64,000 nucleotides of DNA from Streptomyces sp. NBC_01439 (GTDB taxonomy: Bacteria; Actinomycetota; Actinomycetes; Streptomycetales; Streptomycetaceae), in the NCBI RefSeq assembly GCF_036227605.1, contig NZ_CP109487.1, forward strand, positions 5,557,001 through 5,621,000, in the 5' to 3' direction. The notes below the pieces were generated by a model. The model saw nothing but the letters and a program-made list of their open reading frames with translations, did no database searches and was not told where the DNA came from. Made by a program: the position numbers and the translations under genes. Positions 6,049 through 63,387 of the stretch are shown here, piece after piece; positions within the stretch are counted from its first letter, which is position 1, and every line of letters starts with the position of its first letter.

Positions 6049-6167
6049 GGGGACTCCACTTGGGGTGCGGTGGGAAAGGGGTGCACGCCGAAGGGTGTCG
6101 GGGGGACGTATCAGGGCCGGGGCCGCCGTGTATCGGCTTCCGCGCCGTTGTGCAGCAATCGTGCAGG

Positions 6168-6199
6168 GCGGTCCGGGCGGTCCGGGCGGTCCGGGCCGC
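6168..6199. repeat. 9-base tandem repeat between kinase and ABC genes
   Basis: The unit GGTCCGGGC is repeated three times in tandem in the gap between the kinase stop and the ABC ATPase start. It is noncoding here. Two other 9-base arrays occur inside coding parts of the same operon. Confidence 0.7.
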
Positions 6200-6206
6200 C
6201 GGTCGG

Positions 6207-7511
6207 TCAGCGCGGGAGCCGCAGGGTGGCTACCGCGCCGCCGTCCGGGGCGTTGTCCAGACGCAGTTCGGCGCCGAGCACCCGGGCCTGGCCCAGGGCG
6301 ATGGTCAGGCCGAGGCCGTGCCCCGCGCCCCGCTCCGTGGCGCCCGTACGGAACCGGCGCGGGCCGTCGAGCAGCAGGTCGGCTGGGAAGCCGGGGCCGT
6401 GGTCGCGGACGACGACGGTCCGGCCCTCGACGGTGACCCGCACCGGGGTCCGTCCGTGCCGGTGCGCGTTGATGACGAGGTTGCCGACGATCCGCTCCAG
6501 GCGCCGCGGGTCGGTCTCCACCACGCCCACGGAATCCACGACCGGTGCCTGCGGTGCCTGCGGTGCCTGCGGCGCCTCGGTGACGCTGACGTCCGTGTCG
6601 AGACCGGTACGGGCCACCGCCTCGGCGACCACCGCGGCGAGCGGCACCCGGGCGCGGACCGGCGCCTCCGCCCCCGCGTCGAGCCGGGAGATCTCCAGCA
6701 GGTCCTCGACCAGGCCGCGCAGGTCCCGTACGCGGGCCCGGAGCAGGTCCTCCGTCTCGCCGGCCGGCAGCAGGTCGGTGGCGGCCAGCAGGCCGCCGAC
6801 CGGGGTGCGCAGCTCGTGGGCCACGTCCGCCGTGAACTGCCGCTCGGTGCGCAGCCGTCGGCCGAGGCTGTCGGCCATGAGGTCGACGGTGGCGGCGATG
6901 TCGGTCACCTCGTCGCGGCCCCGGGCCCGACCCAGGGCGGGGCCGGTGCGGGCGTCGAGGTCCCCGGCGGAGATCCGGGCCGCGGTCTCGGCGACCCGGC
7001 GCAGTCGGCGGGCGACCAGCCCGGCCCCGTAGACCGCCAGGGGCAGTGCCGCGGCGAGCGAGAGGAGGGAGGCCACCGCCATGCTCGCGTCGAGGCGCCG
7101 CAGGTCGTGGAGTTGCGGGCTCATGTTGATCCGTACGGCGAGCACCGGGCTGCCCGGGCCGCCGACCCGCTGGGCGCCCCAGACGCTCGGTCCGAGGTTC
7201 CCCTCCACGCGCCCGTCGTGGGCCACCCGCCGTTCGTCGTCGGTCGGGTGGCGCAGGGCGGTGGGCAGTTCGGCGGGATCGAGCTCCGCGCCACCCGCCA
7301 GCGTTCCGGTGCGCCGGTAGACGTCCATGGAGGAGTACACGGTGTTGGTGGCTTCCATCTCGGCCCGGTCGCGGACGTCGATGGCGGTCCACACGTGGAC
7401 GAGGGCGCCCACCGCCAGGGCGACCAGGCCCGCCGTGGCCGCCGCCAGTGCGGCGATCTTCCAGCGCAGGGGCACGCGGGCCGGCCACCACGGCCGGCGC
7501 AGGTGGTGCAC
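6207..7511 (-). CDS. Sensor histidine kinase, HAMP type, 434 aa
   Basis: Membrane sensor of the two-component system. The GTG start five bases after the regulator stop implies translational coupling. Order of parts: TM1 about residues 14-42, extracytoplasmic sensor of ~100 residues, TM2 about 143-166, HAMP linker to ~215, HisKA with the phospho-acceptor His232 in HELRTP, and a HATPase_c domain with an N box (NLVINAHRHG), G1 (DHGPGFP) and G2 (GAGHGLGL). The N box lacks the usual Asn-Ala spacing but keeps Asn345/His350. A short Gln-Ala-Pro repeat at 313-323 lies between HisKA and HATPase. It is expected to control the downstream ABC genes, as in envelope-stress/antibiotic detoxification modules. 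Confidence 0.92.
   Translation of the reverse strand: MHHLRRPWWPARVPLRWKIAALAAATAGLVALAVGALVHVWTAIDVRDRAEMEATNTVYSSMDVYRRTGTLAGGAELDPAELPTALRHPTDDERRVAHDGRVEGNLGPSVWGAQRVGGPGSPVLAVRINMSPQLHDLRRLDASMAVASLLSLAAALPLAVYGAGLVARRLRRVAETAARISAGDLDARTGPALGRARGRDEVTDIAATVDLMADSLGRRLRTERQFTADVAHELRTPVGGLLAATDLLPAGETEDLLRARVRDLRGLVEDLLEISRLDAGAEAPVRARVPLAAVVAEAVARTGLDTDVSVTEAPQAPQAPQAPVVDSVGVVETDPRRLERIVGNLVINAHRHGRTPVRVTVEGRTVVVRDHGPGFPADLLLDGPRRFRTGATERGAGHGLGLTIALGQARVLGAELRLDNAPDGGAVATLRLPR
6541..6575 (-). repeat. 9-base tandem repeat in kinase gene (Gln-Ala-Pro)
   Basis: The plus-strand unit TGCCTGCGG is present about three and a half times. In the kinase it encodes (QAP)n between the HisKA and HATPase domains. 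It is the third 9-base array in this operon. Confidence 0.7.
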
Positions 7512-7516
7512 CGGCC

Positions 7517-8242
7517 TCAACGCCTGAGCTTGTAGCCGAAGCCGCGGACTGTCTCGATCCGCTCCCGGCCCAGTTTCTTGCGCAGCCGCTGCACGGCCAG
7601 GTCCACGACACGGCTGTCGCCGTCCCAGCCGTACTCCCAGACGTTGCGCAGCAGGGTGTGCCGTTCCAGCACGATGCCCGGGTGGGCGGCGAACTCCAGA
7701 AGCAGCTTCAGTTCGGTGGGGGTGAGCGCCACGGGGCGTCCGGAGCGGAACACCTCCAGCCCGCCGGTGTCGACGGTCAGGTCCCCGAAGGTCAGGACGT
7801 CCTCCTGGCCGGCGGCCGGCCCGCCGTCGGGGGCGGGCGCGTAGGCCGCCCTCCGGAGCAGCGAGCGGATGCGTGCCACGAGGACGTAGGTGTCCACGGG
7901 CTTGACCACGTAGTCGTCGGCCCCGGCTTCCAGACCGGCGACGACATCGAGGCCGTCGCCCCGGGCGGACATCATCAGCACCGGTACCAGGCTGGTCTCG
8001 CGGACCCGGCGGCACAGCCCGATCCCGTCCAGGCCGGGCAGCATCACGTCCAGGATCAGCAGGTCGAAGCCGTCGCCGTCGCGGAAGGACTCCAGCCCGG
8101 TCAGTCCGTCGGCGGCGGCCGTCACCCGGTAGCCGTAGCGTTCGAGGGCGACGGTGAAGGACCGGCGCATCAGCTCGTCGTCCTCGACCAGCAGCACGCG
8201 GACCGGAGGCAGAGATTCCGGCGCCGGGGCGGGTGAGGGCAC
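7517..8242 (-). CDS. Response regulator, OmpR/PhoB family, 241 aa
   Basis: DNA-binding partner of the adjacent kinase. The GTG start has GGAG eight bases upstream and gives a short Pro-rich leader before the receiver. Receiver features are the acidic pocket at residues 20-22 (EDD), phospho-acceptor Asp65 in LILDVMLPG, and Lys114 in VVKP. The C-terminal winged helix (about 145-241) ends with the conserved RGFGYKL stretch. First gene of the four-gene operon; the likely targets are its own promoter and the ABC genes. Confidence 0.94.
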   Translation of the reverse strand: MPSPAPAPESLPPVRVLLVEDDELMRRSFTVALERYGYRVTAAADGLTGLESFRDGDGFDLLILDVMLPGLDGIGLCRRVRETSLVPVLMMSARGDGLDVVAGLEAGADDYVVKPVDTYVLVARIRSLLRRAAYAPAPDGGPAAGQEDVLTFGDLTVDTGGLEVFRSGRPVALTPTELKLLLEFAAHPGIVLERHTLLRNVWEYGWDGDSRVVDLAVQRLRKKLGRERIETVRGFGYKLRR

Positions 8243-8557
8243 GGGCGGGACTCCTGTTCGTACGGGCCGGGCGAAGCGCCGCTCCGGCGTGCACCCACAC
8301 GCCGCCGACGACCCGGAAGGAACGATACGGGAGGCGCCGGACGCGGCGACCGCCGTCGCGGCCGGGTGCGCGGTCCGATCGATGGTCGAGCGCTCACCGA
8401 TACACGGCGGATACAAAAGGCCGGAATCGGCTTGAACCAAGTGGGGTGCTGGCGGAAAACGGCCTGTACGAGAGGGTGCCCCGGCCGGGCCGCTGCATAG
8501 TCTGACCATCGGTCAATCAGGATCCGCAGCGGGGTCCACGGAGCGAGGAGAACACTG
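8243..8557. promoter_or_regulatory. Divergent control region with a 13-bp palindrome at 8503-8515
   Basis: This 315-base gap separates the response regulator from the KAS III gene and holds both promoters. Near its right end TAGTCT at 8498-8503 is a plausible -10 for the KAS III gene. It is overlapped by the perfect palindrome TGACCATCGGTCA, arms of five around three bases, a size and layout common for TetR/GntR-type repressor sites. A GGAG ribosome-binding site follows nine bases before the ATG. No regulator gene lies next to it. Confidence 0.45.
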
Positions 8558-9496
8558 ATGGTCGGGTCGCGTGTCCTGTCCTTCGGGCACTATCAGCCGT
8601 CAAGGGTCTTGACCAATGCCGATCTCGAGCAAATGGTCGACACCAACGACGCGTGGATCCAGAGCCGGGTCGGGATCAAAACGCGTCGCGTGGCGGCCGA
8701 GGACGAGTCGGTTTCGGACATGGCCACGAAGGCCGCCGAGCACGCTTTGGCCAACGCCGGACTCACCGGCGGCGACATCGACGTCGTCATCGTGGCCACC
8801 TGCACGGCGCTCGACCGCTCGCCCAACACGGCCGCCCGGGTGGCCGCCGCGGTCGGGGCGCAGGCTCCCGCCGCCATCGACGTGAACACGGCCTGCTCCG
8901 GATTCCCGCACGCCCTGGCGCTGGCCGACCAGAGCATACGGACGGGTTCCGCCACGAAGGCCCTGGTCATAGGCGTGGAGAAGCTCACCGACTTCGTCGA
9001 CTGGACCGACCGCACCACCTGCGTGCTCGTCGCCGACGGTGCGGGTGCGGCCGTCGTCGTGGCCTCCGAAGAGCCGGAGATCAGCCCGGTCGTGTGGGGG
9101 TCCGTACCCGAGATGGGCCGGGCCGTGCGCATCGAGGCGCCGTCCCACACCTTCGCCCAGGAGGGGCAGTCGGTCTACCGATGGGCCACCACGACGCTCC
9201 CGGAGGTCGCCCTCCAGGTCTGCGAGCGGGCGGGCGTGAAGCCCGAGGAACTCGGCGGTGTCGTCCTGCACCAGGCCAACCTGCGGATCATCGAGCCCCT
9301 GGCGCGCAAGATCGGTGCGGTCAACGCCGTCATCGCCAAGGACGTCGTCGAGTCGGGCAACACCTCGGCCGCGAGCATCCCGCTGGCGCTGTCCAAGCTC
9401 ATCGAGCGGGGTGAGATCGAGAAGGGATCGCCCGTGCTGCTCTTCGCGTTCGGCGGGGGCCTGTCCTACGCCGGCCAGATCATCAACTGCCCGTGA
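8558..9496 (+). CDS. Beta-ketoacyl-ACP synthase III (FabH-like), 312 aa
   Basis: Thiolase-fold condensing enzyme that joins an acyl-CoA starter to malonyl-ACP or acts as an acyltransferase variant. The catalytic triad is complete: Cys113 in NTACSGF, His238 in LHQANLRI, and Asn268 in SGNTSAAS; the C-terminal glycine-rich GGGLSYAG loop is present. Length is slightly short of housekeeping FabH (~330). ATG start with GAGGAG upstream. It lacks the fabD-acpP-fabF neighbours of the housekeeping locus and is instead coupled to a type II thioesterase, so it probably serves a secondary or regulatory acyl product. Confidence 0.9.
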   Translation: MVGSRVLSFGHYQPSRVLTNADLEQMVDTNDAWIQSRVGIKTRRVAAEDESVSDMATKAAEHALANAGLTGGDIDVVIVATCTALDRSPNTAARVAAAVGAQAPAAIDVNTACSGFPHALALADQSIRTGSATKALVIGVEKLTDFVDWTDRTTCVLVADGAGAAVVVASEEPEISPVVWGSVPEMGRAVRIEAPSHTFAQEGQSVYRWATTTLPEVALQVCERAGVKPEELGGVVLHQANLRIIEPLARKIGAVNAVIAKDVVESGNTSAASIPLALSKLIERGEIEKGSPVLLFAFGGGLSYAGQIINCP

Positions 9497-53252: not shown

Positions 53253-54694
53253 TAGGGCTTGGTCAGGTTGGGGCTGGTGTTGCGTGTCCTAAGGGCTCGG
53301 TGAGTCGTTCAAGACGTGTGACGCCGGAGGAAATTGCAGCTGTACGTGGCGAGTTGGAGGACTTCGCGGCGGAGGTTTTCGAGCCGTTCGCGCGTAAGGA
53401 TCAGCGTCGGTGGGGGCGGGTTTACCTGCGGGGCCTGCTCACGGACGGGCAGCGCAAGTCGGTCGAGCCGATGGCCGCCCGGCTGGGCGAGGACGGGAAC
53501 CGTCAGGCCCTGGCCCACTTCATCACCACCAGCCCGTGGGACCCCGCGCATGTGCGGGCCCGGCTGGCCTGGAGCATGGAGAAGGCGATCCGGCCCACCG
53601 TGCTGATCTTCGATGACACCGGCTTCCTCAAGGACGGCAATGCCTCGGCGTGTGTCTCGCGGCAGTACACCGGCACTGCGGGCAAGGTCACCAACTGCCA
53701 GGTGGGCGTCTCCCTGCACCTGGCCTCGGACCACGCCTCGGTGGCGGTCAACTGGCGGCTGTTCCAGCCCGAGGCCTGGGACCCCGCCTCGCCGAAGGCG
53801 GACCCGGCCAAGGTCGCCCGCCGCACCGCCTGCGGCATTCCCGACGACACCGGGCATGTGGAGAAATGGCAGCTGGCCCTGGACATGCTGGATGAGACCC
53901 GCTCGTGGGGCATCGAGGTGCCGCTGGCCGTCGCGGACGCCGGATACGGAGACGCGGCGGCATTCCGGCACGGCCTGCAGGCCCGCGGCCTCAACTACAT
54001 GGTGGGGATCTCCACCACCCTCTCGGCCCAGCCCGGCGAAGCCGTGCCGGTGACCGAGCCCTACTCCGGGAACGGACGGCCACCCGTGGCGAAGTACCCG
54101 GACAAGCCGCAGTCGGTGAAACAGCTGGTCATCGCGGCCGGCCGGAAGACGGCGAAGCCAGTGCAATGGCGTGAGGGCTCCCGGCCCGGCACCGGCCGCA
54201 GCGGCTTCAAGCGGATGTACTCGCGGTTCGTGGCCTTGCGGATCCGGCCTGCCGGTCGCGAGGTCCGCCACACGGTCGAGGGCCCGGAACTGCCCGCATG
54301 CTGGCTGCTGGCCGAGTGGCCGGCCGACCAGGGCGAACCCGTTCAGTTCTGGCTCTCCGACCTGCCCGCCGACACCCCGCTGACCACCCTGGTCCGCCTG
54401 GCCAAGCTCCGCTGGCGCATCGAGCACGACTACCGCGAGATGAAACAGGCCCTGGGACTTGCCCACTTCGAGGGACGCACCTGGAACGGATGGCACCACC
54501 ACGTCACCCTCGTATCCGTCGCCCACGCCTTCTGCACCCTGCAACGACTGGCCAGAGCCCCAAAAGACATGGCGCCGGCCTGAGCCTCTACCAAGTCGTC
54601 CGCGAGCTACAAACCCTCCTCGCGACATGGACCGGCGCATGCCCCACCTGCCACCGCGGCATACCCACACCAACCCCAACCTGACCAAGCCCTA
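53253..54694 (+). mobile_element. IS701-family insertion sequence, 1,442 bp
   Basis: Terminal inverted repeats of ~28 bases, TAGGGCTTGGTCAGGTTGGG... at the left and its complement at the right, with one mismatch. Both ends are flanked by CTAG (53,249-53,252 and 54,695-54,698), a 4-bp target duplication of the YTAR type reported for IS701-family elements. One transposase gene fills the element. The insertion separates the ltrA remnant from the integrase start. Confidence 0.9.
53300..54583 (+). CDS. IS701-family DDE transposase, 427 aa, frame interrupted near 3' end
   Basis: RNase H-like transposase. GTG start 47 bases inside the left repeat. Catalytic acidic residues are visible in LIFDDTGFLKDG (Asp105/106), AVADAGYGD (Asp213) and RWRIEHDYREMKQALG (Glu). 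The zero frame stops at 54,583, but the -1 frame continues to 54,684 with LSLYQVVRELQTLL and a CPTCHR motif typical of the family's C-terminus. The heptamer CCCAAAA at 54,559-54,565 sits in the slippery register, so programmed -1 frameshifting, or a simple indel, would explain it. Confidence 0.88.
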   Translation: MSRSRRVTPEEIAAVRGELEDFAAEVFEPFARKDQRRWGRVYLRGLLTDGQRKSVEPMAARLGEDGNRQALAHFITTSPWDPAHVRARLAWSMEKAIRPTVLIFDDTGFLKDGNASACVSRQYTGTAGKVTNCQVGVSLHLASDHASVAVNWRLFQPEAWDPASPKADPAKVARRTACGIPDDTGHVEKWQLALDMLDETRSWGIEVPLAVADAGYGDAAAFRHGLQARGLNYMVGISTTLSAQPGEAVPVTEPYSGNGRPPVAKYPDKPQSVKQLVIAAGRKTAKPVQWREGSRPGTGRSGFKRMYSRFVALRIRPAGREVRHTVEGPELPACWLLAEWPADQGEPVQFWLSDLPADTPLTTLVRLAKLRWRIEHDYREMKQALGLAHFEGRTWNGWHHHVTLVSVAHAFCTLQRLARAPKDMAPA

Positions 54695-54698: not shown

Positions 54699-54734
54699 GA
54701 CTTCGAGAAGCGGCCCTACGGCGAACGGAACATC

Positions 54735-56423
54735 ATGGAACGCACAGACCTGCCCACCCTCCGCGCGCTGGGCTTCGAGGATGAAGAGCTACAGCGGATA
54801 GGGCTTTGGGAGGTTGCTGAGGGTGCCTCTGCCGACCTGGCAGAGGCATACATCAGGCGCAGCAAGAAGCGCGACGACCTTTCCACGCTGCGGGCTCACG
54901 TCCGGGATATCTGCCGCACGGCAGCCACTGAAGACGTGACCATTCGCCACGTTTGGTTTGAGCAGAAGTCGGCGAGTAAGGCGCACGTACGTCGCGAGGA
55001 GTTCGAAAAGGCAACTGCCGCTGTCCTTGAAGGACTTTCTAGGACGCTTTACGTGTGGAAGACAGACCGGCTTTCCCGCCGGGGCATGGGCGCTGTGGAC
55101 CGGCTCATTGATGATTTCAAGCCTCGCGGAGCCCGCATCGTCTCCGTGACTGAGGGGCTGGACTCTTCACAGCGGGGCGTGCGAATGGTGTTCGGCATTC
55201 TCAGTGACCGTGCGCGCGAGGAGGCGGAAGACATCGCCATGCGTACTAAGACCGGCGGGGACGCGCACAAGGCTGAGGGACGCTGGCCCGGCGGAGTAGT
55301 CCCGTACGGTCTGCGCTGTCCCAAGGGAAGTGGCAAGTTGGAGCACGACCCGGCGGAGTACCCGACAGCGCGCCGCATTGCTGAGGCTCTTCTAGATGGC
55401 GACACCCCTGCGGGAATAGCCAACACACTGAATGCCGAAAGCACCAAAACCCGTAAGGGGAAGATGTGGCGTGCGCAGACCGTAATTCACCTTGCGCAGT
55501 CTCCTAGCTGGGCTGGGCTCATCCCCGATCGGGAGCGGGCTAAGGATGAATTCGGTAACCCCCTGGATAAGTGGCACCGGCGCGGAACACCGCTCATGGG
55601 CCCTGACGGTCACCCGGTCAAGGCAGGGGAAGGGGTGGTCACCTTCGCTGAGTGGCAGAAAATCAGCGCAATCATCAGTGGGCGAAGCCGTCCAGGGACC
55701 GCGATTGGTGACCGGTCACGTGGCGTTCGCAAGGCAGCCACCATCATGACCGGCATTCTCCGATGCCCTCACTGCAAAGGTTCCATGGGGAACGGCGGGC
55801 GCAATTATCGGTGCATCACGCGAATGAACCAGGGTGAAGCCGCCTGTACGGGAATGGCAACCCTTCGGAAGCGTGTAGATGAAGCCATGGCAGTTATGTG
55901 GATTAACCACGTGCTGATGCTGCCCCCAGGGTCACCGACGATTCAGACGATTGCCAGGGGCTGGCTGTCCTATCAGGACCCGGCCAAAGAAGCGCGCAAG
56001 CGCGCCGTAAGTGCAGCGCTGGACAACGCGGCGGCGCGAGAGCTTCGCCTACAAAAGGAGTTCTTCATTGGGGGTGGAATGGATGAGTCTCAGTACGAAT
56101 CTCTGCGCTCTGAGCTTTCCGCCCAAATCGCGGGGCTGAAATCCGAGCTGGCAGAGCTGTCCCGAGAAGCCGACCTCACGCCGCTCATGGACCCCGAATC
56201 GCTAGCCGACTTGTGGAATGACGCTGGCATTGAGGGACAGCGTGCCCTACTCAAAGCGGCCTTGAAGGGTGTGACGATGGTTCCGCCGAAGGGTGTTGGG
56301 GACCGAACGCCTATCCTCGACCGCCTGATACCGGCATGGCGAGACGACAGCGTGAACCCGGCGGAAGAATCCGCATGGGATGGATGGGAAGAGCGGCGCA
56401 CACAAGTCACGGCCGCGAACTAG
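54735..56423 (+). CDS. int: Large serine recombinase (integrase), 562 aa
   Basis: Site-specific recombinase that integrates and excises the element. Catalytic Ser43 in AYIRRSKKRDD; conserved Arg in KTDRLSRRGMG; the resolvase domain ends near residue 175, followed by a recombinase domain (GGVVPYGLRC ... GIANTLNAE, about 195-290), a zinc ribbon (CPHC ... CITRMNQGEAAC, about 343-372) and a C-terminal coiled coil near 440-475. Length and layout match phage and integrative-element serine integrases. The native promoter region is split off by the IS701 copy 36 bases upstream. Confidence 0.94.
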   Translation: MERTDLPTLRALGFEDEELQRIGLWEVAEGASADLAEAYIRRSKKRDDLSTLRAHVRDICRTAATEDVTIRHVWFEQKSASKAHVRREEFEKATAAVLEGLSRTLYVWKTDRLSRRGMGAVDRLIDDFKPRGARIVSVTEGLDSSQRGVRMVFGILSDRAREEAEDIAMRTKTGGDAHKAEGRWPGGVVPYGLRCPKGSGKLEHDPAEYPTARRIAEALLDGDTPAGIANTLNAESTKTRKGKMWRAQTVIHLAQSPSWAGLIPDRERAKDEFGNPLDKWHRRGTPLMGPDGHPVKAGEGVVTFAEWQKISAIISGRSRPGTAIGDRSRGVRKAATIMTGILRCPHCKGSMGNGGRNYRCITRMNQGEAACTGMATLRKRVDEAMAVMWINHVLMLPPGSPTIQTIARGWLSYQDPAKEARKRAVSAALDNAAARELRLQKEFFIGGGMDESQYESLRSELSAQIAGLKSELAELSREADLTPLMDPESLADLWNDAGIEGQRALLKAALKGVTMVPPKGVGDRTPILDRLIPAWRDDSVNPAEESAWDGWEERRTQVTAAN

Positions 56424-56442
56424 CCGCTGCCACTGAGGCTCT

Positions 56443-56476
56443 GAGCCCCCGTCTGGTCATTGACCGGCGGGGGCTC
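56443..56476 (+). terminator. Terminator after the integrase gene
   Basis: GAGCCCCCG / CGGGGGCTC perfect 9-bp stem, with a smaller inner GGTCA/TGACC pairing in the loop, 20 bases after the integrase stop and followed by TCTC. Confidence 0.8.
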
Positions 56477-56672
56477 TCTCGTGCCCTGAGTAAGTGGCCC
56501 CCTGCGTGCCTTCCGCGTGCTCTCTGACGCCCCCCAGGGACCGGCGGACGACTCAGGGGCGCTCAGGCGGGCACACATGGCTTCACGTGCAGGCTGCCGC
56601 CCACGGGCAATCCACTCCTTCACTCCCCTTTGAAACCGCTTACCGGTAGCCGCACCAACGAGGGGAAGCACC
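56477..56672. other. Leader of the first small ORF, with repeat shared with the later leader
   Basis: No gene seen. CTCAGGCGGGCAC near 56,560 recurs near 56,985, and the block CCCACGGGC(A/G)ATC(C/G)ACTC ... ACTCCCCT...GA(A/G)ACCG recurs in 57,150-57,250. TCCCCT here is complementary to the AGGGGA ribosome-binding site at ~56,660. This suggests duplicated regulatory leaders in front of two small genes. Confidence 0.4.
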
Positions 56673-56861
56673 ATGACCGAGGCTCTTAACCGCGCAATGC
56701 AGATCATGACTCGGTACGTCGAGATGACCGGCGGGCCGATGGACTCAGTTGCGCTCACGGATGTCATCACGGACCTTGCCCTTTGGGGCTACAGCAACGG
56801 CCTCGACTCCGCCGATGCGGTCCGCAGTGCAATGGAGACGCACGTTCCTGCCGAGCGCTAA
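56673..56861 (+). CDS. Small hypothetical protein, 62 aa
   Basis: ATG with GAGGGGAAG upstream. Acidic, helical, cytosolic; begins MTEALNRAMQIMTRYVEMTGG. No recognised domain. First of the element's small genes after the integrase; good ribosome-binding site supports translation. Confidence 0.65.
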   Translation: MTEALNRAMQIMTRYVEMTGGPMDSVALTDVITDLALWGYSNGLDSADAVRSAMETHVPAER

Positions 56862-57240
56862 TACCTCCCACGGCAGCCCGTCTGAATCGCCGACCTGAGG
56901 TGGCTTCCCCGTGCCCTCAGCGGGCCTCTGAGGACTTCCCCGGGGTTGCCGACAGGCGGGATCCGCCAGGCGGCCCGTAGGCACTCAGGCGGGCACGTGG
57001 CGCCCCGCCCTACTCGGGAACAGCGGGCAGATCCACGGGAGTTGGTGTCAAAATTCCTGACACCTGAGAAGACCCTCTATACGCGGATGGGAACCCTCTA
57101 CAGGTGCAAGCTTTTTCGACACCACCGTTGCGATCGGCACTTGGCAGCCGGCCCACGGGCGATCGACTCACTAGATAAATTAGGAAGGAACGATGCGGGT
57201 CCTGTCTCCACGTGGAGGCAATCGGCTCTCTAACTCCCCT
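56862..57240. other. Noncoding stretch within the element
   Basis: No convincing gene in ~380 bases. It holds repeats of the upstream leader (see 56,477-56,672), short CACGTGG palindrome-like sites at 56,994 and ~57,210, and a TTGGCA...TAAATTAGG segment near 57,143-57,184 that could be promoter-like. Replication-related iterons cannot be excluded since the primase gene is close. Confidence 0.4.
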
Positions 57241-57414
57241 CCGAGACCGGTTGGACGGCGAATCCAGCATCCCGGTCATGTACTGACGCGCACCCCCTTT
57301 AGCTAAGCCCCCGGTCTCGTACCGGTTTCATCGCTGCGGATTTCGCCGTCCACGCAGCGTGTGAGACCAGGTGCGAACCGGGGGCTTTTCTTTTACCCAA
57401 AAGGACGGCGAACC
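57241..57414 (+). ncRNA. Candidate structured leader RNA with loop-exposed anti-Shine-Dalgarno
   Basis: The 10-mer GGACGGCGAA occurs at 57,253-57,262 and again at 57,403-57,412, where it contains the ribosome-binding site of the next gene. Its exact complement TTCGCCGTCC is at 57,342-57,351, in the loop of a perfect 7-bp hairpin (CGCTGCG 57,332-57,338 / CGCAGCG 57,353-57,359). This sits inside a perfect 11-bp stem (57,305-57,315 / 57,377-57,387) followed by TTTTCTTTT, a terminator. GAGACCGG at 57,243 can also pair with CCGGTCTC at 57,311, which would break that stem. Confidence 0.55.
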
Positions 57415-57663
57415 ATGAACGGTTACCAGCATTACCAGCGCTCCGAAGAGATTGCAGCGGAGTGCGCGAGGTACGGCGTGAACCCCGAAACAGTGGCCCT
57501 GGCTCAGGTTCACGCGACGCTTGCGCTTGCCGCTGCTACGGCGGATGCCTCCAACTTCAAGCGCGACCTATATGCGGGCAATGGCGAGGAACTTCCGGCC
57601 GTCAAGACGGCGAAGAACCGTGCCGATCGCGCTGCCGCTTCCGCTGCCGCCTTTCTCGACTAA
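57415..57663 (+). CDS. Small hypothetical protein, 82 aa
   Basis: ATG with AAGGA twelve bases upstream, the site covered by the possible anti-Shine-Dalgarno pairing. The protein is Ala-rich and helical (LAAATADASNF ... KNRADRAAASAAAFLD), cytosolic, without known domain. Its stop is 11 bases before the primase start, so translation of the primase gene may depend on it. Confidence 0.7.
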   Translation: MNGYQHYQRSEEIAAECARYGVNPETVALAQVHATLALAAATADASNFKRDLYAGNGEELPAVKTAKNRADRAAASAAAFLD

Positions 57664-57674
57664 GGGGGGCGGCC

Positions 57675-59120
57675 GTGATTTCTGATGACACCTACTGGGC
57701 CAGGCAGCGCGCACGGCTCGATGTAAGTAACGACGTGCTGCACGTGAACTTCGCGAAGTTCGTTGCTGATCATTGTGCGGACCGCCTCAAGCACGTTGAG
57801 CATGTTGGCTGGTATCGCTGGAATGGCATTGTCTGGGAAGCGACCGGCAATGACGGGGCAGCAATGCAGGCAATCACGGACGCTGTTGCTGTGCTTGCCA
57901 GGCGCATTGTTGATTCGCCTGGTGACACATCGTGGGCATCAGCGGCCATGAGCAAGATGCTTGTGAATTTCCAGCGCCGGGCCATCGTTGCCGAAATGAG
58001 CGTTCTCCGGGAATTCCACGCAACCGTTGATGACTTGGACGCCCGGCGGCACCTGCTGACTTTCCGAAACGGCACCGTGGACCTCCGGTCCGGCAGGCTC
58101 AGGCCCCATGATCCAGCGAATATGCTCACGCAGTGCGCGCGGGTCAACTACGTGTCTGATGCCGAGGCACCGCGCTGGCTCCGGTTTGTCGAAGAGGTCT
58201 TCCCGGACGAAACGGAGCTTCAGCGATATTTCCAGACGTTCTTGGGGTACTGCATGACGGGCGAAGTCCGTGAACACGCGCTAGGTGTTTGGTATGGCGC
58301 CCACGGCCGGAACGGCAAAGGCACCACTGTCCGGACCATGCAAAAGGTATTCGGCGCTGACATCGTTCGCGAGGTTGAGTTCTCGCTTTTTGAGAACGTT
58401 CGGGGGCAGGCTCCCCATACTGAGCAGATTGCCGGACTTCGGGGTGCACGCATGGTTGTTGCGCAAGAAGGCAACCCGGGAACTCCGATGAACACGGCGC
58501 TACTCAAGAATTTCAGCGGCGGGGATCGGATCAGCACGCGTCACCTCATGGGCAAGGTCTTCTCGTATGAGCCGACGTTCACCATTGTGCTGGCCACGAA
58601 CCATTTGCCTGAGTTTTCAGCCGGCGGTGCTGCTCTGTGGGCCCGCACTAAAGCCATTCTGTTTGGCCAGTCTTTCGCTGACCGACGGGACCCAGACCTT
58701 GAGCCGACCATTCAGGGCTCGGAAGCCGAGGGTGTTGCCGCATGGGTTGTTCGCGGAGCGACTCGCTATTACGCCGAGGGGTTGAAGGACACACTCAGCG
58801 TGATTCAGGCCGCGGAACACCACAAAGACAGCGTCGACCCGCTTAAAGACCTGGTAGGCGAACTCTTCGACTACTCCGAGGGCGGGGAAGTCGGCCGTTC
58901 CTCGTTCAATGCCGATTTGAAGATGTGGAGGGACAACAACGGCGACAAGTCGGCAAAGTTCAGCCCATCCAGCGTAAAACGGCATCTGCTGGATAGCGGA
59001 AAGGTCGAAGAACTCCGGCGCAAAAATAGGGGCTGGGTCTACACCGGTATTCGTTTGATGAGTGACCCGGAGAGCGCGGCTGGCCCCGGAATCTTCGACC
59101 ACACAGACGCTGCCACCTGA
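57675..59120 (+). CDS. Phage/plasmid P4-type primase with SF3 helicase domain, 481 aa
   Basis: GTG with AAGGGGGG upstream. The region ~20-200 has the D5_N/P4 pattern (WYRWNGIVWE, LLTFRNGTVDLRSG, FLGYCMTG), followed by an SF3-type ATPase: Walker A GAHGRNGKGT (208-217), a B-like MVVAQEG, and motif C FTIVLATNHLPEF. It loads and unwinds at an element origin, supporting autonomous replication of the excised form. No separate toprim primase domain is seen, so it may be helicase-only. Main replication gene of the element. Confidence 0.9.
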   Translation: MISDDTYWARQRARLDVSNDVLHVNFAKFVADHCADRLKHVEHVGWYRWNGIVWEATGNDGAAMQAITDAVAVLARRIVDSPGDTSWASAAMSKMLVNFQRRAIVAEMSVLREFHATVDDLDARRHLLTFRNGTVDLRSGRLRPHDPANMLTQCARVNYVSDAEAPRWLRFVEEVFPDETELQRYFQTFLGYCMTGEVREHALGVWYGAHGRNGKGTTVRTMQKVFGADIVREVEFSLFENVRGQAPHTEQIAGLRGARMVVAQEGNPGTPMNTALLKNFSGGDRISTRHLMGKVFSYEPTFTIVLATNHLPEFSAGGAALWARTKAILFGQSFADRRDPDLEPTIQGSEAEGVAAWVVRGATRYYAEGLKDTLSVIQAAEHHKDSVDPLKDLVGELFDYSEGGEVGRSSFNADLKMWRDNNGDKSAKFSPSSVKRHLLDSGKVEELRRKNRGWVYTGIRLMSDPESAAGPGIFDHTDAAT

Positions 59121-59200
59121 CTACCTAATTCTCCTACCCTTTCCCCTCCCCGTCCGCAATCGGTTGCAGCGGGGCCTCTCCAAAACGTAAGGAATGACCG

Positions 59201-59512
59201 ATGACCGATACCCCCTGGTACATGCGCAAGAACCAAATTGTTGAGAAGCGTGATCCAGAGCGAATGCGCCGACACCTTGAGTCGCTGGCATCTGTGGCCA
59301 GCGAGGAACTTGACGCCGAGTCGGCCCACCTTCGAGCCGCTGAGGCAAAGGGCGTTCAGCTCAGCCCCGCGCAGCGAATGACGATGGGCTATTCGCAGAT
59401 TGCCCGCAGCGCCGCCGATCAGCTAGGCGTCCAGCCGTCCAAGCCTGAGCCTTCGCCGTCCGGCGATCACCTGACCCCTGACCAGCGCATTGCGCGCGGA
59501 TATGGAGCCTGA
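59201..59512 (+). CDS. Small hypothetical protein, 103 aa
   Basis: ATG with TAAGGA upstream. Highly charged, helical N-terminus (KRDPERMRRHLESLASVASEEL). Two related motifs, LSPAQRMTMGYSQ near 52-64 and LTPDQRIARGYGA at the C-terminus, suggest internal duplication of a short binding motif. No family recognised. Confidence 0.65.
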   Translation: MTDTPWYMRKNQIVEKRDPERMRRHLESLASVASEELDAESAHLRAAEAKGVQLSPAQRMTMGYSQIARSAADQLGVQPSKPEPSPSGDHLTPDQRIARGYGA

Positions 59513-59515
59513 TCT

Positions 59516-59989
59516 ATGACTGCCCTTGAGAATGCCCGTAAGGCCGCTGAGGCCGCCGCAGCGAAGCTAGCCGCCCTTGAGTCCGCCGAAGCTGAGAAGG
59601 CTGCCCAGAAGGCCGCTCAGCGCGACGCCCGCCAGCGAGACCTAGACATCGAGTTTCTGGCTCAGTGGAAGGCGCTTGACGATGAGCTGTTGGACGTTGG
59701 ATCGAAGAGTGCCGCTGACGCTGTGTACGAAGGGGCGGACCCAATTGCCGCTGTTGCTACCTACTGGGTGGCGCGTGCTAAGCGGAACGCCATTCGCCAG
59801 CATGCCCGCATGGCCTACTTCCGTGTTCACGGCGAGCACCCCACCGATACCTTTGCCATGGAACTGAACTATCGGGAAATGATGCTCACTGCCCGACTTG
59901 AAGAGGCGATAGGCGGGGCTGCCAGCCGTCACGCCGCTGACCTCTCAGACGCACTTGAAACGCAGTGGATGGCGCCCGATGGCGCATGA
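59516..59989 (+). CDS. Coiled-coil hypothetical protein, 157 aa
   Basis: Starts 3 bases after the previous stop. N-terminal ~45 residues are Ala/Glu/Lys heptads (coiled coil), followed by a mixed helical domain (EFLAQWKALDDELLDVGSK ... VARAKRNAIRQHARMAYFRVHG). Cytosolic. Unknown function; in the dense small-gene run downstream of the replication gene. Confidence 0.65.
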   Translation: MTALENARKAAEAAAAKLAALESAEAEKAAQKAAQRDARQRDLDIEFLAQWKALDDELLDVGSKSAADAVYEGADPIAAVATYWVARAKRNAIRQHARMAYFRVHGEHPTDTFAMELNYREMMLTARLEEAIGGAASRHAADLSDALETQWMAPDGA

Positions 59990-60203
59990 CGCACTGGACC
60001 CGGGACCGGATGGCGATTACCCATTCTTCCCCCGGCTGCCGGACGGCTCGCCCGCATGGTCTGACCGGTGTCCTGCTGACTATCACGGTTCTCGCGTACC
60101 CCGGGGAATTACCACCATTGTTCGGAACCGTCAGCGCCTCGTGATTGATCAGACTCCGTACGACGCTGCCGGTAACCCAATAGACCCACCGGTATTGCTG
60201 TGA
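59979..60203 (+). CDS. Small hypothetical protein, 74 aa
   Basis: ATG overlaps the end of the preceding gene by 11 bases (MAHDALDPGPDGD). Pro-rich and acidic, with DRCPADYHGSRVPRGITTIV and a C-terminal NPIDPPVLL. No domain recognised. The overlaps on both sides support a translated operon. Confidence 0.6.
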   Translation: MAHDALDPGPDGDYPFFPRLPDGSPAWSDRCPADYHGSRVPRGITTIVRNRQRLVIDQTPYDAAGNPIDPPVLL

Positions 60204-60388
60204 GGGGCGTGAATCCGTTCTGTGAGCTGTGCCCCCGGGCGCCGTACGGCATGGAGACCGGAGCTGTTGTGTCTGCCTGGTATCCGCTATCCCGCGCCGA
60301 GTTGATCGCCCGGGGTATCCGGCCGGACTATCCCGGGTACCGGAAGTCCATGTGCCTGGCTTGCTACCAGGCGTGGAATCGCCGTTGA
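60200..60388 (+). CDS. Small zinc-finger-like protein, 62 aa
   Basis: GTGA overlap with the preceding stop. Two CxxC pairs, CELC at residues 8-11 and CLAC near residue 52, predict a single zinc-binding site. Basic C-terminus CYQAWNRR. Phage elements often encode such small treble-clef or zinc-ribbon proteins. Function unknown. Confidence 0.65.
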   Translation: MRGVNPFCELCPRAPYGMETGAVVSAWYPLSRAELIARGIRPDYPGYRKSMCLACYQAWNRR

Positions 60389-60392
60389 TGAG

Positions 60393-60421
60393 AGGTGCCC
60401 TGTGTCGGACACAGGGCACCT
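60393..60421. terminator. Bidirectional terminator, perfect 13-bp stem
   Basis: AGGTGCCCTGTGT, a 3-base loop and the exact complement, between convergent genes. Its right arm ends inside the stop codon of the minus-strand gene. Confidence 0.85.
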
Positions 60422-61007
60422 AGTCCTTTGTCCCGTCATTGTCCAGTGCTACCCGCGCCCTTTCAGAGAAGTCATCTATCGCGTCCATGAAATTACAAAA
60501 GCGCGTAGCTCCATCCCTCCACTGGTCAGACAGACTGGGCATGCCTGGATAGGTGACGGGCACGCGCATTACTGCAAGCACGGCATACACCAGGCGAGAC
60601 TTTTCGTCGACAAGAGCTGCTGCCGCACTCACTTCTTTAGGGCCAGCGAGCTGAACCCGTGTCGATATCTTCTTCACGTTCTCATGGAGCGCCTCAGACT
60701 CTCGGATGACCATGATCAAATCCATCCCAGGCGGAAGGATTCGAAGACGCTCTAGGTCGCTAAGTTCGTCTGGTGTCGGAGCTAGTAGGAGTTTGGTGAG
60801 GCTTGAGTGCGCGTGGGCTGCGGTAATGAGCTCCTCGTAGACGGCCTGCCGCGCGTCGCGTCGCTGCCGAAGGTGCTCGGCGCGTGCCGCCGTCCTCGCC
60901 TGCTCTCGTGCTGACCAGCCGGTAGCCACCGATGCCCCGATGGTCGCTACCGAACCTGCCAACGCGCCGAGCACTGCTGCCAATCCTGCGTCCATGCGGG
61001 TAACCAT
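60420..61007 (-). CDS. Membrane-anchored hypothetical protein, 195 aa
   Basis: The N-terminal hydrophobic helix (about residues 7-30, LAAVLGALAGSVATIGASVATGW) is followed by an Arg/Ala-rich helical cytosolic domain with AREQARTAARAEHLRQRRDARQ. Type II or signal-anchor topology. Lone minus-strand gene among plus-strand element genes, a placement typical of cargo or immunity genes expressed in the integrated state. I do not recognise the family, and exclusion function is only a possibility. Confidence 0.6.
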   Translation of the reverse strand: MVTRMDAGLAAVLGALAGSVATIGASVATGWSAREQARTAARAEHLRQRRDARQAVYEELITAAHAHSSLTKLLLAPTPDELSDLERLRILPPGMDLIMVIRESEALHENVKKISTRVQLAGPKEVSAAAALVDEKSRLVYAVLAVMRVPVTYPGMPSLSDQWRDGATRFCNFMDAIDDFSERARVALDNDGTKD

Positions 61008-61205
61008 CAGGGCCCAGAAGTCGGGCCGTCAAGGGGGCCGTACTGGCAGTGAAACGCCCTTTCCCTTACGCAACGCTGCCCCAACTGCCGGCGCGTGGGC
61101 CTAACCCCCAGCGACCAGTAGATATGCCCCCAGGCGTTCTCCCCCTCCCCCCTTCGCTGGCGCTACGTCCCCGGACCCGTCGGCATGCAGACCCTTGGAA
61201 CAGCC

Positions 61206-61595
61206 ATGCCCCGAATGCCCAAGAAGCCATGTACTCAGCCTGGTTGCGGCGAACTCACGGATGGTGGTCCGTGCGCTGAACACAAGAAACAGAGGGAGCA
61301 GCAGCGAGGATCGGCCAGCAAGCGCGGTTATGACGTTGGGTGGCAGCGAAAGAGAATGGCTTACCTGTACGCGAATCCATGGTGTGTGCTGTGTAGTCGG
61401 CATGCCAACGTCGCGGACCATTGGCCTTTGAGCCGTAAGCAATTGCTGGCAAGAGGTGAGGTAATGCCTGACGCACCAAAGCACCTTAGGCCGTTGTGCA
61501 CTGCTTGCCACAACAAGGAAACGGCTAAGAACCAGCCGGGCGGATGGGCTGCCGAGAAGGTCAAGCCACAGCCGAATGACGTTCCGCCGTTCTGA
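61206..61595 (+). CDS. HNH endonuclease, 129 aa
   Basis: Metal-dependent nuclease with zinc-binding cysteines (CTQPGCGEL, CVLC, CTAC) and the catalytic HNH core ADHWPLSR ... PLCTACHNKET. ATG at 61,206 has GGA nearby; an ATG seven codons upstream is an alternative. This class of small phage HNH normally lies next to cos and terminase genes and helps in packaging. Here no terminase follows in the window. Confidence 0.88.
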   Translation: MPRMPKKPCTQPGCGELTDGGPCAEHKKQREQQRGSASKRGYDVGWQRKRMAYLYANPWCVLCSRHANVADHWPLSRKQLLARGEVMPDAPKHLRPLCTACHNKETAKNQPGGWAAEKVKPQPNDVPPF

Positions 61596-61910
61596 CTTCC
61601 CGCTGCATCTCCCACCTACCCCCTGGGGGGTGACCCCCTCCCGGCCCTGAGATCGACCGGCAGGGAGGCAAAAAGCTAGCTCCGTAACTGGAGACGTTTG
61701 CGCGGACTTGCAGCAGAAGAGCTTGCCCTTCAATCGGATTGGGCCATACGATCCGTGATCGTCGCCGTATGACCCATGGCCTTTGATGTTGGGACGGAGT
61801 AGCGTTACAAGCGTGACGCTTAGCCAGATCCGTGGATCGGCGGCCATCGACTGACTTATTGTCAGCTCTCAGATACAAGCGGCATTGTGGTTTGAACTCA
61901 AGGAACCATC
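61596..61910. other. Noncoding stretch after HNH gene, with GC-rich symmetric segment
   Basis: No gene. CCTACCCCCTGGGGGGTGACCCCCTCC at about 61,616-61,642 forms nested inverted repeats and is a possible cos-like or terminator site. Further short inverted repeats are CATACG...CGTATG near 61,746-61,770 and AGCGT...ACGCT near 61,801-61,820. The ribosome-binding site AAGGAACC of the next gene is at the end. Confidence 0.4.
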
Positions 61911-62498
61911 ATGAGTAGCACTCCGCGACGACGAATTTCCCGTTGTGTCGGCGCTTCCTGCCTGGCTGCGACACTTGCTGTTTCAACAGGGGCGACTCTC
62001 GCGATAGCTGCCCCTCAAGCATCCGCCCAGGCATCGCGAGCGATACAAGGCGATAGCGGCGACAGTGATCAAGGCGGATCGGACGAGTCCAACTCGGACC
62101 AACGCAGCAGTGATCAACACAGCAGTGACCAACACAGCAGTGACCAACACAGCAGTGACCAACACAGCAGCGACCAACACAGCAGCGACCAACAGAGCAG
62201 CGACCAACAGAGCAGTGATCAACAGAGCAGTGATCAACACAGCAACGACCAACACAGCAGTGATCAACAGCGCAGCAACCAACGCAGCACCCACAAGACG
62301 CCCAGCAACGACACAAGAAACAGCAGAAACGACCAGTTCGATAGTGGCGATGTCAACGGTGTCTCACCGGAGACGATAGGTGGCGCCCTGAATGACCTCG
62401 CGAAATGCCTCCCGAGGCCTCTGCCAGAGAACCCGTATTGCTGGAAGTACGTGGCAGGGGTAGGACTCCTGTGGATAATTCCCGGCAAGGTGGAATAA
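61911..62498 (+). CDS. Secreted Ser-Asp-Gln-His repeat protein, 195 aa
   Basis: ATG with AAGGAA upstream. Signal peptide residues 1-42 (Arg-rich n-region, cleavage after ASA). Residues ~62-118 are SSDQH/SSDQQ pentapeptides from a nearly perfect 15-base repeat, hydrophilic and probably disordered. The C-terminal ~45 residues are a conserved-looking segment with two Cys and a hydrophobic end (KYVAGVGLLWIIPG). Unknown family; may be an element-encoded surface or morphology protein. Confidence 0.72.
   Translation: MSSTPRRRISRCVGASCLAATLAVSTGATLAIAAPQASAQASRAIQGDSGDSDQGGSDESNSDQRSSDQHSSDQHSSDQHSSDQHSSDQHSSDQQSSDQQSSDQQSSDQHSNDQHSSDQQRSNQRSTHKTPSNDTRNSRNDQFDSGDVNGVSPETIGGALNDLAKCLPRPLPENPYCWKYVAGVGLLWIIPGKVE
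62090..62290 (+). repeat. 15-base tandem repeat AGCAGTGACCAACAC (SSDQH)
   Basis: About twelve copies in the secreted-protein gene with silent C/T variation and Gln/His switching. Not CRISPR: no spacers, unit is codon-phased. Confidence 0.9.
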
Positions 62499-62517: not shown

Positions 62518-63387
62518 AGCGTTGTCCCGTAAGTACTGGTCACGGGTGAGATGATCTTGCTGTGTCTGGTGTGATCACGGCGTCGGAGCCGTCCTGGATA
62601 GCCCCGTTCGCCGGGCTGAGCCCGCGGCAGTTCAGCAAGCTGATCACCGCGCTGCGGCGCGAGGGAGCCGACCCGGTCCGCAAGGGCCGACCCTGGAGCC
62701 TGCCACTGGAGGACCGGGTCCTGCTGGTCGCCGCGTACTGGCGCACCAACCTCACCCTGCGCCAACTCGCCCCGCTGTTCGGGGTGTCGAAGTCCGCGGC
62801 CGACCGGATCGTCGACCACCTCGGCCCGGCGCTCGCGCTCCAGCCCCGCAAGCGGTTCCGCAAGGACACCGTGCTGATCGTCGACGGCACCCTGGTCCCC
62901 ACCCGGGACCACACCATCGCCGAGCAGTCGAAGAACTACCGGTACTCCACCAACCACCAGGTCGTCATCGACGCCGACACCCGGCTCGTCGTCGCGGTCG
63001 GCCGGCCACTGCCCGGCAACCGCAACGACTGCAAGGCATGGGAGCTGTCCGGAGCGAAAGACGCCGTCGGCAAGGCCACGGTGATCGCGGACGGCGGCTA
63101 CCGAGGCACCGGCCTGGTCATCCCCCACCGCCGCGAACCCGGCCAGAGCGAACTCCCGGGCTGGAAAGAGGAACACAACCGCTCGCACCGCAAGGTCCGA
63201 GCCCGCGTCGAGCACGCCTTCGCCCGCATGAAGACCTGGAAGATCCTCCGCGACTGCCGCCTGAAAGGCGACGGGGTCCATCACGCCATGCTCGGCATCG
63301 CTCGCCTCCACAACCTCACGCTCGCTGGTTGACCAGGAAACGACGCTGGTCAACCAGCATGCCGTAGATCATTTACGGGACAACGCT
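62518..63387 (+). mobile_element. IS5-family insertion sequence, 870 bp
   Basis: Perfect terminal inverted repeats AGCGTTGTCCCGTAA and complement (15 bp, 18 bp including flanking bases), bordered by a TA dinucleotide on both sides (62,516-62,517 and 63,388-63,389) as target duplication. One transposase ORF. Base composition is as GC-rich as the chromosome, unlike the surrounding element, indicating recent arrival from a Streptomyces background. Confidence 0.88.
62562..63332 (+). CDS. IS5-family DDE transposase, 256 aa
   Basis: GTG start 44 bases inside the left repeat. N-terminal helix-turn-helix (LRQLAPLFGVSKSAADRIV) and DDE catalytic core: LIVDGTLVPTRD, VIADGGYRGTG and the RARVEHAFARMK Glu motif. 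Single uninterrupted ORF, apparently functional. Confidence 0.92.
   Translation: MSGVITASEPSWIAPFAGLSPRQFSKLITALRREGADPVRKGRPWSLPLEDRVLLVAAYWRTNLTLRQLAPLFGVSKSAADRIVDHLGPALALQPRKRFRKDTVLIVDGTLVPTRDHTIAEQSKNYRYSTNHQVVIDADTRLVVAVGRPLPGNRNDCKAWELSGAKDAVGKATVIADGGYRGTGLVIPHRREPGQSELPGWKEEHNRSHRKVRARVEHAFARMKTWKILRDCRLKGDGVHHAMLGIARLHNLTLAG

Follow-up and report, generated by a model that had tools for sequence, protein, structure and literature searches.

A probable antisense-RNA immunity switch, P4-like in its working, ahead of a P4-family helicase gene in a Streptomyces element

The soil bacterium Streptomyces sp. NBC_01439 carries, in the 64,000-nt stretch of DNA analysed here (the window, always meaning that whole stretch), a leader in which a hairpin loop holds the exact complement of the ribosome-binding region of the next gene, and of a second copy of that sequence further upstream. 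What does a loop with two competing targets control, and does it act on its own transcript or on others? The end of the window looks like a small integrative element in a Streptomyces-like genome, with the following genes.

54735..56423, + strand: serine integrase (Resolvase, 3.3e-20; Recombinase, 2.6e-8; phrog_95, 6.1e-68), presumably belonging to the same element as the leader
57415..57663, + strand: 82-aa ORF (MNGYQHY...), a small protein and the first gene 3' of the hairpin (phrog_16141, E 3.5e-10)
57675..59120, + strand: P4-family SF3 helicase / primase C-terminal protein (D5_N, 5.7e-27; phrog_6088 DNA primase, 2.2e-97)
61185-61595: HNH gene (phrog profile search), with small ORFs between it and the helicase gene

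An earlier note, made from the letters alone, had placed the leader before the replication genes of an element, and this position is borne out by the 82-aa ORF and the helicase, which scores 191.8 bits against TIGR01613 (cut-off 108.7). Pfam and NCBIfam searches with the 82-aa ORF gave zero matches, and a repeat search for element ends in the window gave no convincing direct repeat as att sites. The element is flanked by an IS701-family transposase (53300-54583) and an IS5-like transposase (62562-63332, scoring just under its curated cut-off), and a 15-nt repeat array at 62052-62336 lies within ORF 61911-62498. Also seen 5' of the leader or at its start were a perfect, operator-like inverted repeat (GGTGTCA-7-TGACACC, 57044-57064), a 36-nt imperfect direct repeat (75%; 56606-56641 and 57217-57252) lying 5' of a 62-aa ORF and of the upstream target, and a 37-aa leader ORF (57193-57306), window-specific as judged by eye only.

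The leader itself comprises the following features.

57242..57250, + strand: CGAGACCGG, possible antiterminator, pairing with CCGGTCTCG (57311-57319) in the 5' arm of the hairpin, in the window only
57252..57262, + strand: seqA, the upstream target TGGACGGCGAA, an 11-nt exact complement of the B loop
57305..57387, + strand: terminator-like hairpin, the proposed antisense RNA, with outer stem 57305-57315/57377-57387 (11-bp inverted repeat)
57342..57351, + strand: seqB, TTCGCCGTCC, lying in the apical loop and reverse-complementary to seqA and seqC without mismatch
57386..57394, + strand: U-rich tail TTTTCTTTT 3' of the hairpin, by sequence
57403..57412, + strand: seqC, GGACGGCGAA, in the ribosome-binding region of the 82-aa ORF, 2 nt 5' of the ATG, a 10-nt exact loop complement

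All the short sequences that the earlier note had reported are present, namely the 10-mer GGACGGCGAA at 57253-57262 (the core of seqA, whose loop match extends to 11 nt) and again as seqC, the complement between them, and the 11-bp outer stem with its tail. Another exact copy of the 10-mer lies on the minus strand at 59452-59461, inside ORF 59201-59512. The description of the complement as the hairpin loop needs a correction: it is indeed borne in a loop closed by an inner 7-bp stem (57332-57338/57353-57359), but this loop (57339-57352) is 14 nt long, so the 10-mer is part of it and not the whole. The proposed folding check came out clearly, the minimum free energy (MFE) fold of 57300-57395 being very stable (-61.4 kcal/mol, z -9.47, 0 of 200 shuffles as stable; -59.9 kcal/mol for 57305-57387 folded alone). 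Within the loop of this fold, GGAU and GUCC pair, leaving 6 nt open. The window seqA sits in a small predicted hairpin, TTGGA-CGGCGAA-TCCAG, which is weak and ordinary given its z of -0.19. A consensus terminator scan, which permits only 3-8 nt loops on a simple stem, did not list the hairpin at 57305-57387, its sole listed site being 57646-57673; a promoter scan gave 0 matches, and simple promoter patterns likewise none.

Relatives were sought for the helicase and for the 82-aa gene in overlapping sets of genomes (1999 counted with repeats). The strong relatives of the 82-aa gene fall into five distinct loci, namely the window, L028 (S. lycii, found via its helicase), and L029 (S. stelliscabiei), L149 and L163, which are strong new relatives from the genome searches. 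About 27 more close 82-aa relatives (P0121-P0152 minus these five loci) also came up. The genome of L163 (G673) also contains L162, and the L163 helicase is on another contig; L163 is read as Actinacidiphila oryziradicis because L162 and L031 both have, at the start of a contig, a helicase truncated in a similar way, and because P0135 is so named. The A/B/C leader is present in four of the five loci (window, L028, L029 and L163) and absent from L149. By eye, the motif CGACTC(A/G)CTAGA occurs in the window (57164-57175), L028 (3438-3449) and L149 (1053-1064 and 1132-1143), 5' of the leaders of these three genes.

The four leaders fall into three letter classes, GGACGGCGAA in the window, GGCATCAC in L028 and L029, and GCCGCCAC in L163; since L028 and L029 form one class they are not independent, and conservation is counted over three letter classes only. 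At all four loci B is the exact reverse complement of both A and C, over 8-10 nt within a locus, although the letters differ to the extent that the longest core match between the three classes is 3 nt. Two targets sharing one loop-borne anti-Shine-Dalgarno, as the earlier note had proposed, are thus found in every class, and the compensatory conservation that it had asked for in homologous elements is seen both here, in complementarity kept with changed letters, and in the stem, as set out below. The A-to-B spacing is 89 nt in the window, 97 in L028, 94 in L029 and 100 in L163, and seqC ends 2, 15, 15 and 16-17 nt before the ATG, respectively, with a second C copy in L028 (at 3720) ending 2 nt 5' of the ATG.

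The predicted folds agree in outline. At 4/4 loci the prediction is a single long, bulged hairpin that carries B in its apical part and is followed by a U-rich tail; all 10 nt of the B loop are predicted to be open in L028 and L029, and some of them to be paired in the window and L163. A small hairpin is likewise predicted at all four loci that holds seqA within or at its loop (z -0.19, -2.53, -2.49 and -2.72 for window, L028, L029 and L163). Across L028, L029 and L163, with the structure drawn from the L028 fold, both partners are changed in five stem pairs (three of the inner stem, one of the middle and one of the outer), compared with a shuffled mean of 1.7, and 4 of 500 shuffles reach five. 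In this three-row alignment 85.7% of cells are paired, and 11 of 28 pairs depart by unpaired cells only, because the L163 outer stem misfits the given register. RNAalifold on a rough alignment of all four loci gave double changes in 9 of 17 pairs.

The chance of such matches was estimated by keeping the loop fixed and shuffling the flanks 20000 times with dinucleotides preserved. For the window, 2 shuffles reached the A match (11 nt), 5 the C match (10 nt) and none the two together. For L028, L029 and L163, both matches together were reached in 3, 0 and 5 shuffles, A alone in 121, 75 and 1293, and C alone in 198, 102 and 104, respectively, so that the A match of L163 is weak by itself. In RNAduplex searches, A and C were the strongest loop sites within about 7 kb for both L028 and L029. 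The window has one site, near 58879 (-22.0), that outranked A (-21.4), followed by C (-20.3), and in L163 A came first, with C (-21.1) outside the 12 best sites.

The specificity of the pattern was gauged by scanning the collected loci (2.54 million strand-bases, duplicates and a stretch of P4 included) for single terminator-like hairpins with 8 nt complementary to the loop both in the 150 nt before and in the 150 nt after. The settings were loosened once L163 was known, an earlier, stricter scan having missed it. Among 543 candidates, ten rows matched, comprising only the window, L028, L029, L163 and their duplicates, and all four loci precede the same gene family. Without the hairpin requirement, plain 8-nt triples are common in this GC-rich DNA, occurring in many of 147 loci; a first triple scan at 9 nt missed L028 and L029, and at 8 nt without the hairpin the scan is noisy. 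Hairpin scans of both strands gave zero matches in the weak 82-aa relatives (L003-L005, L150-L154, L164) and in helicase loci of at least 43% identity (L025, L026, L027, L030, L032, L033, L010, L011, L069), the result for L010 coming from the hairpin scans alone; L006 and L031, also with helicases of at least 43% identity, end before the leader. The close helicase relatives L025, L026, L032 and L033 have, by eye, different genes in front. The leaders of L025 (3400-3540), L026 and L032 show by eye a strong hairpin between repeats like ACTCACTCTCTG, followed by a plain terminator and then a small Cys-rich ORF. Searches of phage, plasmid and viral collections turned up no further A/B/C leader; one of them returned only partial gene matches of 47 nt, from 9 records of Gordonia phages. 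A helicase relative (P0033) and an 82-aa relative (P0134) carry a Massilia metagenome-assembled genome (MAG) label and consecutive locus names, and are probably mis-binned Streptomyces DNA.

The known system closest in layout is that of P4, a coliphage satellite. As a control, a plain triple scan of 3 kb of P4 at 8 nt returned two sets, one being the origin iterons (TGTTCACC) and the other TTCACAGG. The latter occurs at 8651, within the Rfam isrK match, at 8463, within the Rfam C4 match (74.9 bits), and at 8384, overlapping AGGAGG 5' of an ATG, and these copies are taken by position as seqA, seqB and seqC. The CI RNA of P4 is described as pairing with seqA and seqC, with premature termination as the result (in passages of PMC4825925), and Rfam C4 and isrK as picking up relatives of CI and seqA (in part of PMC10111431). 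The Streptomycetaceae leaders resemble P4 in the order A, B, C of the matched short sequences, in the position of B in an RNA loop and of C over the ribosome-binding region, and in the P4-family replication gene downstream. They differ from it in several respects. In P4 the terminator after seqA (at the end of the isrK match) is separate from the CI RNA (the C4 match), whereas in the Streptomycetaceae leaders one hairpin seems to be both terminator and antisense RNA; the P4 stretch gave no match in the hairpin scan because its CI RNA is not a terminator hairpin. The A-to-B distance is 89-100 nt, compared with 188 in P4, which also has a second triple (GTGAGAA, 7 nt, at 8667, 8448 and 8415) besides TTCACAGG.

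In C4 of P1/P7 (Rfam RF01695), listed for Proteobacteria and phages, there are three stem-loops and two different targeting loops (as outlined in PMC2864571), one partly occluding ribosome-binding sites and the other binding upstream (according to passages of PMC5320573). By contrast, the Streptomycetaceae leaders have a single loop for both targets. Membership in Rfam C4, with its three stem-loops and separate a' and b' loops, was considered and rejected on the single bulged hairpin predicted at 4/4 loci. The Rfam C4 model gave no match in the window, L028, L029 or L163 (P4 control, 74.9 bits), nor did isrK or c4-a1b1 in the Streptomycetaceae leaders; near the leader there were merely three sub-threshold Rfam matches, on the opposite strand, and two more elsewhere in L028. 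Since these models do not match, and since terminator and antisense RNA appear to be fused, the leader is regarded as P4-like in working but outside the C4 RNA family. A further likeness is to IsrK of Gifsy-1, a terminated phage RNA acting in trans on its own read-through mRNA (as portrayed in passages of PMC4825925); IsrK activates translation, whereas pairing in the Streptomycetaceae leader would repress it.

At the level of the element, the window has integrase and helicase, HNH genes are found in the window and L029, and L028 has a protease-capsid fusion. The Mulch/Flayer satellites and cf-PICIs are comparable in being small Streptomyces elements, with HNH and capsid genes found in the window or its relatives. 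The Mulch/Flayer satellites are described as lacking recognisable primases (in part of PMC10690885), unlike window-type elements with their serine integrases and P4-family helicase. The fusion in L028, a prohead protease joined to a capsid protein (Peptidase_S78 + Phage_capsid, 6113-7729, 3' of the helicase), hints at capsid-forming satellites in Streptomyces.

Taken together, the leader is probably an antisense-RNA immunity switch that precedes a P4-family helicase and works in the manner of satellite phage P4. The complementarity kept under letter change, the target in the ribosome-binding region and the replication gene behind it are established at the sequence level, and the presentation of seqB in a loop at that of predicted structure. 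For the mechanism, we infer an upstream promoter from which transcription would run through seqA and then the hairpin, mostly ending at the U-rich tail. The terminated and probably processed hairpin RNA, freed from seqA by cleavage in the linker like processed C4 and CI, would expose seqB in its loop. Acting in trans, seqB would pair with seqC of read-through transcripts and with seqA of newly made leaders, blocking translation of the 82-aa gene, and helicase expression would fall via coupling or polarity. An integrated element would thereby stay silent, and another one with the same class of loop would be shut off.

The strongest competing explanation, though an unlikely one, is a leader switch working in cis only, in which pairing of B with A would leave C free (gene on), pairing of B with C would turn the gene off, and no RNA acts in trans. 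The lie of A, B and C on the same strand within about 160-225 nt at 4/4 loci would suit it, as would the window pairing between upstream flank and hairpin arm, which could oppose the terminator. The earlier note had this pairing, of GAGACCGG with CCGGTCTC, break the stem, and named a switch in cis as one possibility. The pairing does exist in the window, over 9 nt (CGAGACCGG/CCGGTCTCG; 2 of 2000 single-base shuffles did as well), but it shrinks to 4, 5 and 3 nt in L028, L029 and L163, and for want of this conservation a main switch of this kind was rejected. Also against a switch confined to cis, the like layout in P4 and P1 is described as working in trans (in passages of PMC4825925 and PMC5320573).

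Considerably less probable is RNA copy-number control of an excised, replicating form, in the manner of plasmid antisense RNAs, which would involve the same molecule for another purpose. The leader does precede a replication helicase gene, and mycobacteriophages are described as having RNA-based prophage origins (in part of PMC7157519), but the element has a serine integrase and encodes its own helicase, and since the target lies in the ribosome-binding region, translation is a likelier point of control than a primer RNA. Where the earlier note had left copy-number and lysogeny control side by side, a lysogeny (immunity) RNA fits better than pure copy-number control because the layout is that of P4.

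Still less is to be said for A, B and C as DNA iterons bound by a replication protein, with co-variation following the protein, although the P4 origin iterons do surface in the triple scan. Exact copies number just 4 in the window (54700-61700, one of them the distant copy at 59452), 4 in L028, 3 in L029 and 3 in L163 (2025 bases); each locus has A on the plus, B on the minus and C on the plus strand, B falling in a hairpin loop and C within the ribosome-binding region, and the annotated iterons of P4 lie at its origin, away from the leader. Origin iterons were discarded on copy number and layout. An ordinary terminator with chance repeats, for which the abundance of plain 8-nt triples might speak, is scarcely credible, being contradicted by the flank shuffles, by the complementarity kept across letter classes, and by the four distinct loci that remain once a hairpin is required, all before one gene family.

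The P4-like immunity switch may have a wider bearing. Proteobacteria and their phages are the hosts for which RNA immunity of the P4/C4 type is described (in passages of PMC2864571 and PMC5320573), and no report of it in Streptomyces was found among the titles and abstract openings listed from open-access literature. That Streptomycetaceae show this three-part logic with an unrelated RNA suggests a design that arose repeatedly or diverged beyond recognition. The chances are about even that a P4-like RNA immunity evolved separately in actinobacterial satellite-like elements, with a single hairpin serving as both antisense RNA and intrinsic terminator and an exchangeable loop of 8-10 nt defining the immunity group. 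The group of an element could then be read from its loop, and, if true, the leader would provide a compact, programmable off-switch for Streptomyces.
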